Notes under the pieces: model-generated
Seen by the model: the letters and a program-made list of their open reading frames with translations, nothing else
Told to the model about the DNA's origin: nothing
Databases searched by the model: none
Position numbers and translations under genes: made by a program
Shown here: one piece after another, positions 3,860-7,577 of the stretch
Position numbering within the stretch: position 1 is the first letter of the stretch
Layout: every line of letters starts with the position of its first letter
Assembly (NCBI GenBank): GCA_021805985.1
Contig: JAJZDN010000025.1
Location: forward strand, 1-48,071
Direction of reading: 5' to 3'
Length of the DNA stretch: 48,071 nucleotides
Source of the DNA: Planctomycetota bacterium
GTDB lineage: Bacteria > Planctomycetota > Phycisphaerae > WQYP01

Positions 3860-4714
3860 ATGTTTTTTATTGACCCCCATATACACATGGTTTCCCGCAC
3901 AATGGCGGATTATGAAATGCTGGCGCTATCCGGTGTGGTGGCCGTAAGCGAGCCGGCGTTTTGGGCCGGCTTTGATCGGTCACCGGCTGGCTTTGTCGAT
4001 TATTTTCGGCAATTAACGGAATTTGAACCGCGCCGAGCAGCCCAATTTGGTATACAGCATTATTCCTGGATTTGTCTGAACCCCAAGGAGGCAGAGGATC
4101 TGGGCAAAGCGCGGGAAGTGCTGGCGGAAATTCCCAAGTTTTTATCCTGCCCCAGCGTGCTGGGCATCGGAGAAATCGGCCTGAATAAAAATACGCCCAA
4201 TGAAGCCAAAGTGTTTCAACAGCATGTGCAGATCGCCATTGATGCAGCAAGCCAAGGCCCGCCTGGCTCCAAGCACGCCCTGATCCTCATTCACACCCCG
4301 CACCTGGAAGACAAACTCAAAGGCACACGCATGATTCTGGAAATGCTGCGCGATTTTGGCTCTGCCATTGACCCCGCCCGCGTCCTGATTGATCATGTGG
4401 AGGAACACACCATCGAACTGGTAAAAGACGCCGGCTACTGGGCCGGCATGACTATTTATCCCATCAGCAAAGCCACCCCCGCCCGCGCTGTGGACATGAT
4501 TGAAATGTACGGGCCTCAACGGCTATGCGTCAACGCCGCCGCCGACTGGGGTATAAGCGATCCCTTAAACACCCACCGCACCATGCTGGAAGCCCAGCGC
4601 CGTGGCCATCAACTGCCGGAACTGTTACAAGTATTTCACAACAACCCCGCAGAATTTTTCGGCCAGAACCCAAAATTTACAGTCAAGCCTCTCACCGTGC
4701 AGCCAGCAGCATAA
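3860..4714 (+). CDS. TatD-family metal-dependent hydrolase
   Basis: This 284-residue amidohydrolase-fold protein is of the TatD/TIM-barrel type. Metal ligands are visible in order: DPHIHM near the N-terminus (HxH), the Glu of GIGEIGLNK, His in LIHTPH, His in LIDHVEEH, and Asp in AADWG near the C-terminus. TatD proteins are Mg/Mn-dependent DNases or phosphoesterases, but the substrate of this branch is not apparent. It follows the 81-residue gene by 25 bases and is probably translated from GGCGGAGC upstream of its ATG. Its stop codon (4712-4714) lies inside the left 26-bp repeat that borders the ATPase/DUF4276 module. Confidence 0.85.
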   Translation: MFFIDPHIHMVSRTMADYEMLALSGVVAVSEPAFWAGFDRSPAGFVDYFRQLTEFEPRRAAQFGIQHYSWICLNPKEAEDLGKAREVLAEIPKFLSCPSVLGIGEIGLNKNTPNEAKVFQQHVQIAIDAASQGPPGSKHALILIHTPHLEDKLKGTRMILEMLRDFGSAIDPARVLIDHVEEHTIELVKDAGYWAGMTIYPISKATPARAVDMIEMYGPQRLCVNAAADWGISDPLNTHRTMLEAQRRGHQLPELLQVFHNNPAEFFGQNPKFTVKPLTVQPAA

Positions 4715-4735
4715 AGCCGCCGGCTATGCCGGTGG
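4710..4735 (+). repeat. Left copy of 26-bp hairpin direct repeat
   Basis: This matches 6824-6849 in 25 of 26 positions. It contains a perfect 8-bp stem (CCGCCGGC at 4717-4724, GCCGGTGG at 4728-4735, with one G-T pair) around a 3-nt loop. The stop codon of the TatD-like gene is inside it. It could act as a terminator hairpin or a REP-like element, or mark the edge of an inserted module. No run of T follows. Confidence 0.75.
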
Positions 4736-4834
4736 GACTCGGTGGAAACGCCATAGCCGTCGTGGTAGTCTTGCGGTATGCTTCATTTAAGAGGAATTGC
4801 AGCGGTAGATGTTTGAAGTGCAGGATAAGTAGCA

Positions 4835-6100
4835 ATGAGTAATGCGCTTGACCATATCCGGATAAAAGGGTTCAAGTCCATCCGTGAATTGGATATAGAG
4901 CTTCGCCCGCTTAACGTGCTCATTGGGGCCAACGGGGCCGGCAAGAGTAATTTCGTAAGCTTTTTTCGCTTTATTCAGGAAATGGCTGTAACAAAATTGG
5001 AGTTAGCCGTGGCCAAGCATGGCGGTGCCGATGCGATCCTGCATTTCGGAGCCAAGGTCACACGGCAACTCGACGCGGAGTTCCACTTTCAAAACAACGC
5101 GTATAGCGTCAGGTTTGTTCCCGTAGCCGAAAATAAGCTGTTTAACGTCGAAAATAAGCCGTTTAACGTCGAAGATAAGCTGTTTATCGCCGAAGAAAAG
5201 GCGGCCTACACCACGCACATCGGGACTCATGCCCCTCCGCCGGAAGCGGTCAGACATAGTTTCGAAGAGCCTATTTCGTCATCGGAGCCAAGGCACCGGG
5301 AATCGGAGTTACTGAAGAAGGGGAGAGTCTATTATCAATTAAAACGGGCGGATATGCCAGCACAGCGTGTCTTTGAGTTTATATCTAACTGGGTAGTTTA
5401 CCATTTTAGTGATACCAGTGAATATGCCGGAATGCGGCAGCAGAAGGCGATCAATGACAACGAGTTCCTCCGGCAGGATGCCGAAAATCTCGCGGCATTT
5501 TTGTTCATGCTCCAGAAAACCAGCCCGGCCGCCTATGAGCAAATTCGTGATGCTGTCCGACTGGCGGCTCCATTCTTCGATGATTTCAAGCTGCGCCCCG
5601 TTACGGCAAACCCGGAATTGATCCAGTTGGAATGGACTCAGGTCGGGTCGGATTATCCATTCCGGCCCAGCCAATTTTCCGACGGCACGCTGCGCTTTAT
5701 CTGCCTGGCCACCGCGCTACTGCAGCCCAATCCGCCGGCCACCATGCTGTTTGATGAGCCGGAATTGGGACTGCATCCGTATGCCCTGACGCTGCTGGCC
5801 AGCCTGTTCAAGCGGGCTGCCAAAAGTGGCGGCCAGGTGATCGCCTGCACCCAATCGGCATCGCTCCTGAATGAATTTGAACCGGAGGATGTAATTGTCG
5901 TGGACCGCCGGGACGGCCAATCGACATTTCACCGCCTGGACAAGGCGGAGCTTTCCGAATGGCTGGAAGATTATGGACTGGGCGAACTTTGGCAGAAAAA
6001 TATTTTCGGCGGAAGGCCGCACGGTGAGGCAGGGAATGGGCCTCCGAAATCGGATGCCGTGGCACCCGGTAACGCACCGCCAGAGGGTGACATCCCATGA
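4835..6100 (+). CDS. AAA (ABC-type, AAA_21-like) ATPase, first gene of a putative defence pair
   Basis: This 421-residue soluble ATPase has an ABC/SMC-like layout. The N-terminus reads IRIKGFKSIRELDIELRPLN, as in RecF/OLD-type ATPases, followed by Walker A GANGAGKS (residues 31-38), a long helical insert, a signature-like FSDGT (281-285), Walker B MLFDEPELGLHP (D307, E308) and a switch-region TQSASLL. Residues 99-119 are three tandem heptads (ENKLFNV, ENKPFNV, EDKLFIA). The last ~35 residues are Pro/Gly-rich and probably disordered. It overlaps the next gene by four bases (ATGA), so the pair is translationally coupled. ATPase + DUF4276 (TOPRIM-like) resembles split OLD-type or AbiL/RloAB-type anti-phage systems. 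The defence role is an inference. Confidence 0.85.
   Translation: MSNALDHIRIKGFKSIRELDIELRPLNVLIGANGAGKSNFVSFFRFIQEMAVTKLELAVAKHGGADAILHFGAKVTRQLDAEFHFQNNAYSVRFVPVAENKLFNVENKPFNVEDKLFIAEEKAAYTTHIGTHAPPPEAVRHSFEEPISSSEPRHRESELLKKGRVYYQLKRADMPAQRVFEFISNWVVYHFSDTSEYAGMRQQKAINDNEFLRQDAENLAAFLFMLQKTSPAAYEQIRDAVRLAAPFFDDFKLRPVTANPELIQLEWTQVGSDYPFRPSQFSDGTLRFICLATALLQPNPPATMLFDEPELGLHPYALTLLASLFKRAAKSGGQVIACTQSASLLNEFEPEDVIVVDRRDGQSTFHRLDKAELSEWLEDYGLGELWQKNIFGGRPHGEAGNGPPKSDAVAPGNAPPEGDIP
5129..5191 (+). repeat. Three in-frame 21-bp tandem repeats inside the ATPase gene
   Basis: Units lie at 5129-5149, 5150-5170 and 5171-5191. The first two differ by one base and the third is more diverged. Each encodes a heptad of the form E-N/D-K-L/P-F-N/I-V/A. 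The repeat sits in the variable insert between Walker A and the signature region, so copy number can change without breaking the frame. Confidence 0.85.
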
Positions 6101-6756
6101 CGCGGGTTCACGTTGTTGTTGAAGGACTCACCGAAGAAACATTTGTCAACGATGTGCTCGCACCCGCGCTTGGTTGGCGGGGTGTTTACCTGACACCGTG
6201 CCGCCTGGGCACGGCCGGCCATCGCGGCGGAAACGTGACTTATGTCCGCGTAGAAAGTCACGTGGTCAAATTACTCAGACAGGATAAAGGTGCCTATTGC
6301 ACCACGCTCTTCGACCTTTACGGTTTGGGAAACGGCTTTTCTGGAAACACACCTGTCCTCAGCGATGCCTGCAGGGCGACGCAAATAGAACACGGGCTGA
6401 TGGCCGATATTATTGCCGCGCATGGCGATGATCTGCGTGCTGATGTTCGATTTATCCCGTATATCCAGAAGTATGAATTTGAAGGCCTGCTTTTCAGCGA
6501 TCCGAAGAAACTGGCATGCGCTATCTCGCAACCGCAACTGCAAAACGAATTCCAAAGCATTCGTGCGAAATTTAAGACGCCGGAAGAGATCAACGACAGT
6601 CCCCAGACCGCACCGTCGAAACGCATACCGCAAATTTACCCGCCATACGAGAAACTCTTCCACGGGGTGCTGGCGGCCAAGGCAATTGGCCTTGCAGCCA
6701 TTCGACGCGAATGTCCACGATTTAACGCGTGGGTCACGCGGCTTGAGTCGTTATGA
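6097..6756 (+). CDS. DUF4276 family protein (TOPRIM-like), second gene of the putative defence pair
   Basis: This 219-residue protein matches the DUF4276 family by its N-terminal VEGLTEETFVNDVLAP, by FDLYGLGNGF, by YEFEGLLFSDPKKLA and by its C-terminal end (KAIGLAAIRRECPRFNAWV). The E-G-x-T-E motif followed by acidic patches suggests a TOPRIM-type metal-binding nuclease fold (family-level inference). Its ATG overlaps the stop of the ATPase gene by four bases. Genes of this family often sit beside AAA_21-type ATPases, and such pairs are candidate phage-defence modules. It is followed after 67 bases by the right-hand 26-bp repeat. Confidence 0.85.
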   Translation: MTRVHVVVEGLTEETFVNDVLAPALGWRGVYLTPCRLGTAGHRGGNVTYVRVESHVVKLLRQDKGAYCTTLFDLYGLGNGFSGNTPVLSDACRATQIEHGLMADIIAAHGDDLRADVRFIPYIQKYEFEGLLFSDPKKLACAISQPQLQNEFQSIRAKFKTPEEINDSPQTAPSKRIPQIYPPYEKLFHGVLAAKAIGLAAIRRECPRFNAWVTRLESL

Positions 6757-6823: not shown

Positions 6824-6849
6824 CATAAAGCCGCCGGCTCTGCCGGTGG
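6824..6849 (+). repeat. Right copy of 26-bp hairpin direct repeat
   Basis: Same sequence and orientation as 4710-4735 except for one base in the loop. The stem arms are 6831-6838 and 6842-6849. It lies just downstream of the DUF4276 gene, so the two copies bracket the ATPase/DUF4276 module, a span of about 2.1 kb. Confidence 0.75.
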
Positions 6850-6885: not shown

Positions 6886-7548
6886 TTACTTACCCGCCTG
6901 AACGGTTGGTAAAGCTTTTATCTTAATAACTCGCTGATTGGTAAATACGCGGCCCGTCAGGGCGTCTTTAAAGGTCAGATGAAATGTGATGCTGTGATTC
7001 ACCGGCGGTTTTTTCCAGGGGCAGTTGAAGCAAAATTCATTGAGGCCGAAATTTCCGTACCACAATTTTTTGGACTGCTGCGGCGTAAAAACCCACTGAC
7101 CAATGCGTTGCGAACCATGCGCTATTCCAAGGTCAAAGGCTTCAATGGTAAATGTGCCCGTGGCTGGTAATACCAGGTTGCCCGGCATCAGTGTGCGGAC
7201 AAACACGCGAAACCCGTTCAAGGCTTTGGCATTTTTCAGATGGGCCACTGCAGTGTCGGCCGTGACTCGCACGGCGCTGACCGTAAAAAGTTCTGATAAA
7301 CGTTTGGGTGCCAGCGTGGCAACAGGCACCGTGTGGGCAGCCAACTGCGCCTTGAGTTCCGCAATGGTGCTTTTTTGCCGGTGAATTGCAGCTTGCAGTG
7401 CGGTATTTTTATTTTGTAATTTGACATTCTGGCTGTAAAACGGCGCGTTGTTTTTGTAGTTGGCGCATCCGCCGGTGCCCAAAATAAACAAGCCACAGCC
7501 CAGCAATGCTGCTACAACTAAGCCCGGGCCTTTGAAAATACATCGCAT
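6886..7548 (-). CDS. Putative lipoprotein with N-terminal coiled coil
   Basis: I chose ATG 7548 (220 residues) because MRCIFK begins a clean signal sequence ending at the lipobox-like GTGGC near residue 28. In-frame upstream starts exist at 7563 (ATG) and 7575 (GTG), the latter two bases past the clpP stop. After Cys comes a coiled-coil stretch (QNVKLQNKNTALQAAIHRQKS, about residues 40-70), then a ~130-residue beta-rich domain that I do not recognise. It follows clpP closely on the same strand and may share its transcript, although no functional link is evident. Confidence 0.7.
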   Translation of the reverse strand: MRCIFKGPGLVVAALLGCGLFILGTGGCANYKNNAPFYSQNVKLQNKNTALQAAIHRQKSTIAELKAQLAAHTVPVATLAPKRLSELFTVSAVRVTADTAVAHLKNAKALNGFRVFVRTLMPGNLVLPATGTFTIEAFDLGIAHGSQRIGQWVFTPQQSKKLWYGNFGLNEFCFNCPWKKPPVNHSITFHLTFKDALTGRVFTNQRVIKIKALPTVQAGK

Positions 7549-7577
7549 AATGGAATCCGTCATCAGGTGCCACACTG

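Follow-up and report, generated by a model that had tools for sequence, protein, structure and literature searches.

In the window analysed here, which is the whole 48,071-nucleotide stretch of DNA from a Planctomycetota bacterium (genome G000), two neighbouring genes encode an ATPase and a DUF4276 protein (Table 1). The preliminary description of this DNA had reported that they overlap by four bases; this was borne out as an ATGA stop/start junction with both reading frames on the forward strand, and such overlaps are common among relatives of the pair. It had also placed them in an ordinary housekeeping setting, and the pair is indeed surrounded by TatD-like, ClpP and tRNA synthetase genes, with no other defence system around this stand-alone copy. 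Comparison of G000 with a congener (G001) gave dN/dS values of 0.22 for the ATPase and 0.18 for DUF4276, which represent purifying selection, and therefore both genes are real and maintained. Inside the ATPase gene, three 21-base tandem units were observed in frame at positions 5128-5203; they give the protein 14 residues more than that of the congener and fall in a lower-confidence part of its structural model. The 5' leader is nearly identical to that of the congener, although silent sites of the genes differ by about 30%, and its part beyond the palindrome was not found elsewhere in the genus. A fold test of the leader gave no support for a structured RNA (z-score 0.18, i.e. the fold is not unusual), and promoters and terminators around the pair were not above shuffled controls.

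Table 1. Features of the ATPase/DUF4276 locus, in window coordinates.
Feature	Position	Strand	Remarks
HEC-01A, ABC/OLD-type ATPase, 421 aa	4835..6100	+	Walker A 31-39, FSDGT 281-285, Walker B/D-loop 303-315
HEC-01B, DUF4276 protein, 219 aa, predicted TOPRIM-like metal-dependent nuclease	6097..6756	+	Acidic residues invariant (n=55)
ATGA stop/start overlap of the two genes	6097..6100	+	
5' leader	4712..4834	+	121/123 bases identical in congener; within the genus found at the pair locus only
Upstream flanking gene, TatD-like hydrolase (weak Pfam match)	3860..4714	+	Conserved with and without the pair
Downstream flanking gene, uncharacterised, no Pfam match	6886..7575	-	Adjoins clpP; conserved with and without the pair
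Left REP-like palindrome copy	4710..4735	+	
Right REP-like palindrome copy	6824..6849	+	Same orientation as left copy

All motifs that had been noted in the first protein are present, including Walker A (GANGAGKSN), the FSDGT signature and Walker B (LFDEPELGLHP), and their core residues show no or almost no variation across 49 relatives. Its earlier designation as an AAA ATPase was right as to the ATPase but not as to the AAA+ class. Because Pfam matched AAA_21, AAA_15 and SMC_N, and because the predicted structure (pLDDT 90.7) had its best matches in the heads of SMC and Rad50 and in PtuA of retron/Septu systems (Z about 19-21), the protein is an SMC/Rad50/OLD-type ABC ATPase. The second gene product belongs to DUF4276 as proposed (PF14103, E 6.7e-52), and the EGLTEE motif lies within VVEGLTEETF at its N-terminus.

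Searches against defence-system HMMs, as suggested in the preliminary description, returned HEC-01A and HEC-01B as the best PADLOC matches of the two proteins. The ATPase matched HEC-01A over residues 3-395 (E 5e-138, 458 bits), with the AriA model far below (E 6e-31) and the AbiLi model at E 6.5e-25, while DUF4276 matched HEC-01B over its full length (E 6.3e-75, 250 bits). For the latter protein, Pfam (E<=0.001) found DUF4276 alone and PADLOC (E<=0.1) found HEC-01B alone, with no RloB domain; PADLOC gave no hit to AriB (E<=0.1), Pfam none to DUF4435 and PHROG none at all. A search by sequence for solved structures of the pair proteins returned none. Since both HMMs are the best matches and the genes are adjacent, co-directional and joined by the ATGA overlap, we assign the pair to HEC-01, a catalogued candidate anti-phage system that stands alone here and would consist of a PARIS-like sensor/restraint ATPase and a nuclease effector, a reading to which we give roughly two chances in three.

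HEC stands for Hma-embedded candidate, meaning genes that lie between the genes of an Hma system (PMC12111858); the Hma system itself was described in PMC8565338. According to a preprint (10.1101/2024.01.29.577857) as far as it is cited in PMC12988326, several HECs, taken as a group in general, are anti-phage. In the open literature that we searched, DUF4276 was not mentioned and HEC-01 was scarcely discussed, a defence paper merely listing it. Thus, the earlier remark that the system may be under-described is fair with regard to the literature, but this kind of system is already catalogued in PADLOC, and the pair is a new stand-alone member of it in Planctomycetota.

Both flanking genes make it possible to compare the site within the genus. 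The congener G001 carries the pair at the same site, with protein identities of 86% (ATPase) and 89% (DUF4276), whereas G003, G004, G005 and G002 keep both neighbours with no pair between them (gaps of 288, 298, 33 and 36 bases, respectively). The site is polymorphic and the pair is accessory: it is not universal at this locus, being absent in four of the six genomes that were informative (G006 and G007 were left out, as one flank match is missing in each). DUF4276 was found above the cut-off in seven of the eight genus genomes and in 20 of 28 family genomes, and its distribution over the phylum is patchy (43 of 294 sampled genomes). Within the species collection, metagenome-assembled Planctomycetota are the nearest named relatives. 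Such a distribution bears on the idea of a housekeeping ATPase-nuclease that acts in DNA repair or the cell cycle and has no phage role. The ATPase fold is SMC/Rad50-like, and the archaeal OLD-family ATPase Cran1 works in the cell cycle (PMC12796447); nevertheless, the empty sites and the patchiness over the phylum make this explanation very improbable. A further observation concerns contig C12 of G005 (L041, 9096-10711), where a related ATPase is full length and the reading frame of its DUF4276 partner is cut short, possibly a decayed effector with the restraint retained.

The preliminary description had also given the pair its own repeat borders. Repeats do exist at both sides and are identical at 25 of 26 positions, but the expression is misleading because about 80 copies of the core of this imperfect palindrome are dispersed over the genome (80 matches in G000 on both strands, allowing up to three mismatches). 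With up to two mismatches, there are 67 copies in G000, 114 in G001 and 2 to 26 in the other six genomes. Some copies adjoin Y1-transposase genes (Y1_Tnp, RAYT-like), such as those at C58:560-1470 and C6:7330-7857 of G000. The palindrome is a REP-like family that is expanded in the two genomes with the pair at this site, and the data suggest a REP/RAYT family in Planctomycetota whose expansion took place in some species of the genus only. A mobile element bounded by the repeats was considered and rejected: the matches are spread genome-wide on both strands, integrase and transposase genes are absent between the two repeats, and the empty sites of G003 and G004 already have a related palindrome at their right border. 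That recombination between REP copies helped the insertion of the pair is speculation.

To examine the relatives, we scanned one genome per species and obtained 67 loci from at least 16 phyla. At every DUF4276 locus with enough upstream sequence, the ATPase gene directly precedes it on the same strand, usually with an overlap; the loci that lack it start at a contig end. A tree of 55 proteins from 16 named phyla required 29 phylum changes versus a minimum of 15, which fits, but does not prove, frequent transfer. A strong association between relatives of the pair and restriction-modification (R-M) genes was observed. In the relatives, 47 genes lying no more than two positions from the pair hit 153 PADLOC families (E<=1e-20), versus 11 families for 47 genes at least four positions away, two gene sets whose loci overlap but are unmatched and in which one gene can match many models. 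The families near the pairs include type I methyltransferase and specificity subunits and DrmD/HmaA helicases, and Pfam added N6_Mtase, SNF2, Methylase_S, ResIII and one BrxL. A paralogous pair of G000 itself (68% identical; contig C166, L042 9163-14290) lies between a type III methyltransferase gene and a type III restriction gene, in an operon that also encodes a DrmD-like helicase.

These neighbourhoods raise the question of whether the module guards R-M as a back-up, becoming active and aborting the infection only once restriction in the host is inhibited by a phage. Relatives within type I, type III and BREX-like operons are consistent with this, and OLD-ABC/TOPRIM pairs have been recruited to BREX as back-up effectors (PMC12839542). 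However, the pair in the window stands alone, and for this reason we regard such a role as doubtful.

Relatives of the pair also occur on mobile replicons: with SNF2 and methyltransferase genes on an Aeromonas plasmid, with helicase, methyltransferase and Mrr genes on an Ideonella plasmid, and beside VapBC on an Acinetobacter plasmid. In IMG/VR, two viral contigs carry the pair; on one of them (L162, 3898-5660) it lies between a probable repressor and Mu-like-looking genes. From a reading of the ORFs, the neighbours on both sides look Mu-like and the pair looks like phage-borne cargo. A similarity search of a 50,697-record phage collection revealed no phage that carries it. Carriage on plasmids and prophage, together with the overlap of the two genes, would also be expected of a selfish addiction (toxin-antitoxin) module that persists through post-segregational killing, and pairs of an AAA antitoxin and a TOPRIM_OLD toxin are known (PMC10440598). 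On the other hand, the chromosome-like housekeeping surroundings, the purifying selection and the strong tie of relatives to R-M genes all argue against addiction, which we consider unlikely.

The AlphaFold model of DUF4276 is confident, with a pLDDT of 92.4 and a pTM of 0.90. Foldseek by itself gave no significant match (best E 0.036, mostly unrelated folds), and the matches described here come from realignment of Foldseek candidates rather than from raw Foldseek E-values. After realignment, the top solved matches were the C-terminal TOPRIM domains of Bp and Xcc OLD (6nk8, 6njx, 6njw and 6njv; Z 8.3-9.6, rmsd 4.4-4.6, 168-178 residues), led by 6nk8 (Z 9.6, rmsd 4.6, 178 aligned) and also including 6njx (Z 8.7, rmsd 4.5, 171 aligned). 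P. horikoshii PH0156 likewise reached Z 9.6, followed by GajA (Z 7.5) and Ts OLD (Z 7.0), with unrelated folds from about 6.7; RloB and AriB structures were absent among the matches listed, an absence that carries no weight against them. The TOPRIM prediction that the preliminary description had proposed for DUF4276 was therefore recovered, at the level of the model, as an OLD-like TOPRIM. We regard the TOPRIM-like fold as well supported but not proven, because Foldseek's own E-values are not significant.

Residues E9, G10, E13, D73, E127, E129, E163 and P173 of DUF4276 are invariant among 55 sequences. In OLD, the metal ligands are E400, D455 and D457 for metal A and E404, T506 and E508 for metal B (PMC7049728). 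E9 and E13 are spaced i,i+4, like E400 and E404; in the model, D73 after strand 3 would fit D455, and E127/E129 after strand 4 would fit T506/E508, an equivalence drawn from order, spacing and position after predicted strands, i.e. from topology and not from superposition. The predicted fold thus keeps an acidic cluster as a candidate metal site; like the empty sites in four relatives, this does not refute the defence reading. At the position that would correspond to OLD D457, DUF4276 has a tyrosine (D73-x-Y75) conserved in at least 90% of sequences. Because this conserved Y75 appears to take the place of the second Asp in the DxD of TOPRIM domains, catalysis may differ. A broader view is tentative: with its metal site altered (DxY for DxD, extra invariant E163), DUF4276 would be a TOPRIM-like nuclease that possibly cleaves a substrate new to ATPase-TOPRIM systems, and these uncultured planctomycetes would use it both within R-M operons and alone.

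The similarity to OLD and GajA leads to another explanation, namely a standing OLD/Gabija-like holoenzyme in which the TOPRIM subunit cuts phage DNA and the ATPase licenses it, with no release of a toxin. The proximity of the DUF4276 model to both TOPRIM domains is in line with this idea, as is the fact that OLD proteins are metal-dependent DNA nucleases (PMC7049728). It is a possible but not the favoured explanation, as the genes are separate and overlapping like those of PARIS and AbiL, a helicase partner is absent at the locus, and DxD is reduced to DxY.

By analogy, the likeliest arrangement for HEC-01 is that of PARIS, in which an ATPase senses and restrains and a TOPRIM nuclease is the effector. 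There, a phage trigger acts on the AriA ATPase, which sets free AriB, a two-metal ribonuclease that cuts tRNA (PMC12409363; PMC12839542). HEC-01A would similarly act as infection sensor and restraint, presumably assembling with HEC-01B, the putative TOPRIM-like metal-dependent nuclease effector. Infection, or a phage anti-restriction protein, might serve as the trigger; an ATP-dependent rearrangement of the ATPase would then free or activate the nuclease, which may cut host or phage nucleic acid so that phage production stops. A two-gene ATPase/TOPRIM defence module, as first proposed, is supported by the HEC-01A/B matches, the OLD-like model, the presence/absence pattern and the R-M neighbourhoods of relatives, but the nucleotide trigger that had been attached to it found no support. 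The useful additions are the assignment of DUF4276 to TOPRIM and the apparent loss of the second Asp of the DxD motif. With a TOPRIM-like fold and named residues, the mechanism becomes directly testable, and the R-M-embedded and stand-alone copies of one genome offer a natural comparison of whether the module needs a host system.

Compared with known systems, the pair has the same gene order and pairing as HEC-01. The naming context of HEC-01 is an embedded one, whereas the pair here lies outside Hma and R-M systems, embedding not being required of members. PARIS (AriA/AriB) also combines an ABC ATPase and a TOPRIM protein in two genes, but the effector here is DUF4276 and has no AriB match. 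OLD and GajA share the ATPase fold family and have the TOPRIM domains structurally closest to the DUF4276 model; however, they are single polypeptides instead of two ORFs, their complete DxD contrasts with the DxY of DUF4276, and Gabija differs further in that no GajB helicase is present at the locus. The earlier comparison with OLD-like or AbiL/RloAB-type modules holds for the architecture but not for the family: AbiL/RloAB likewise pairs an ATPase with an OLD_TOPRIM-related protein in two genes, but the second gene here is DUF4276/HEC-01B and not RloB/AbiLii. HEC-04/IbfA, for which phage blocking has been shown (PMC12111858), also joins an ABC ATPase with TOPRIM, in one fused protein instead of the two genes observed here.
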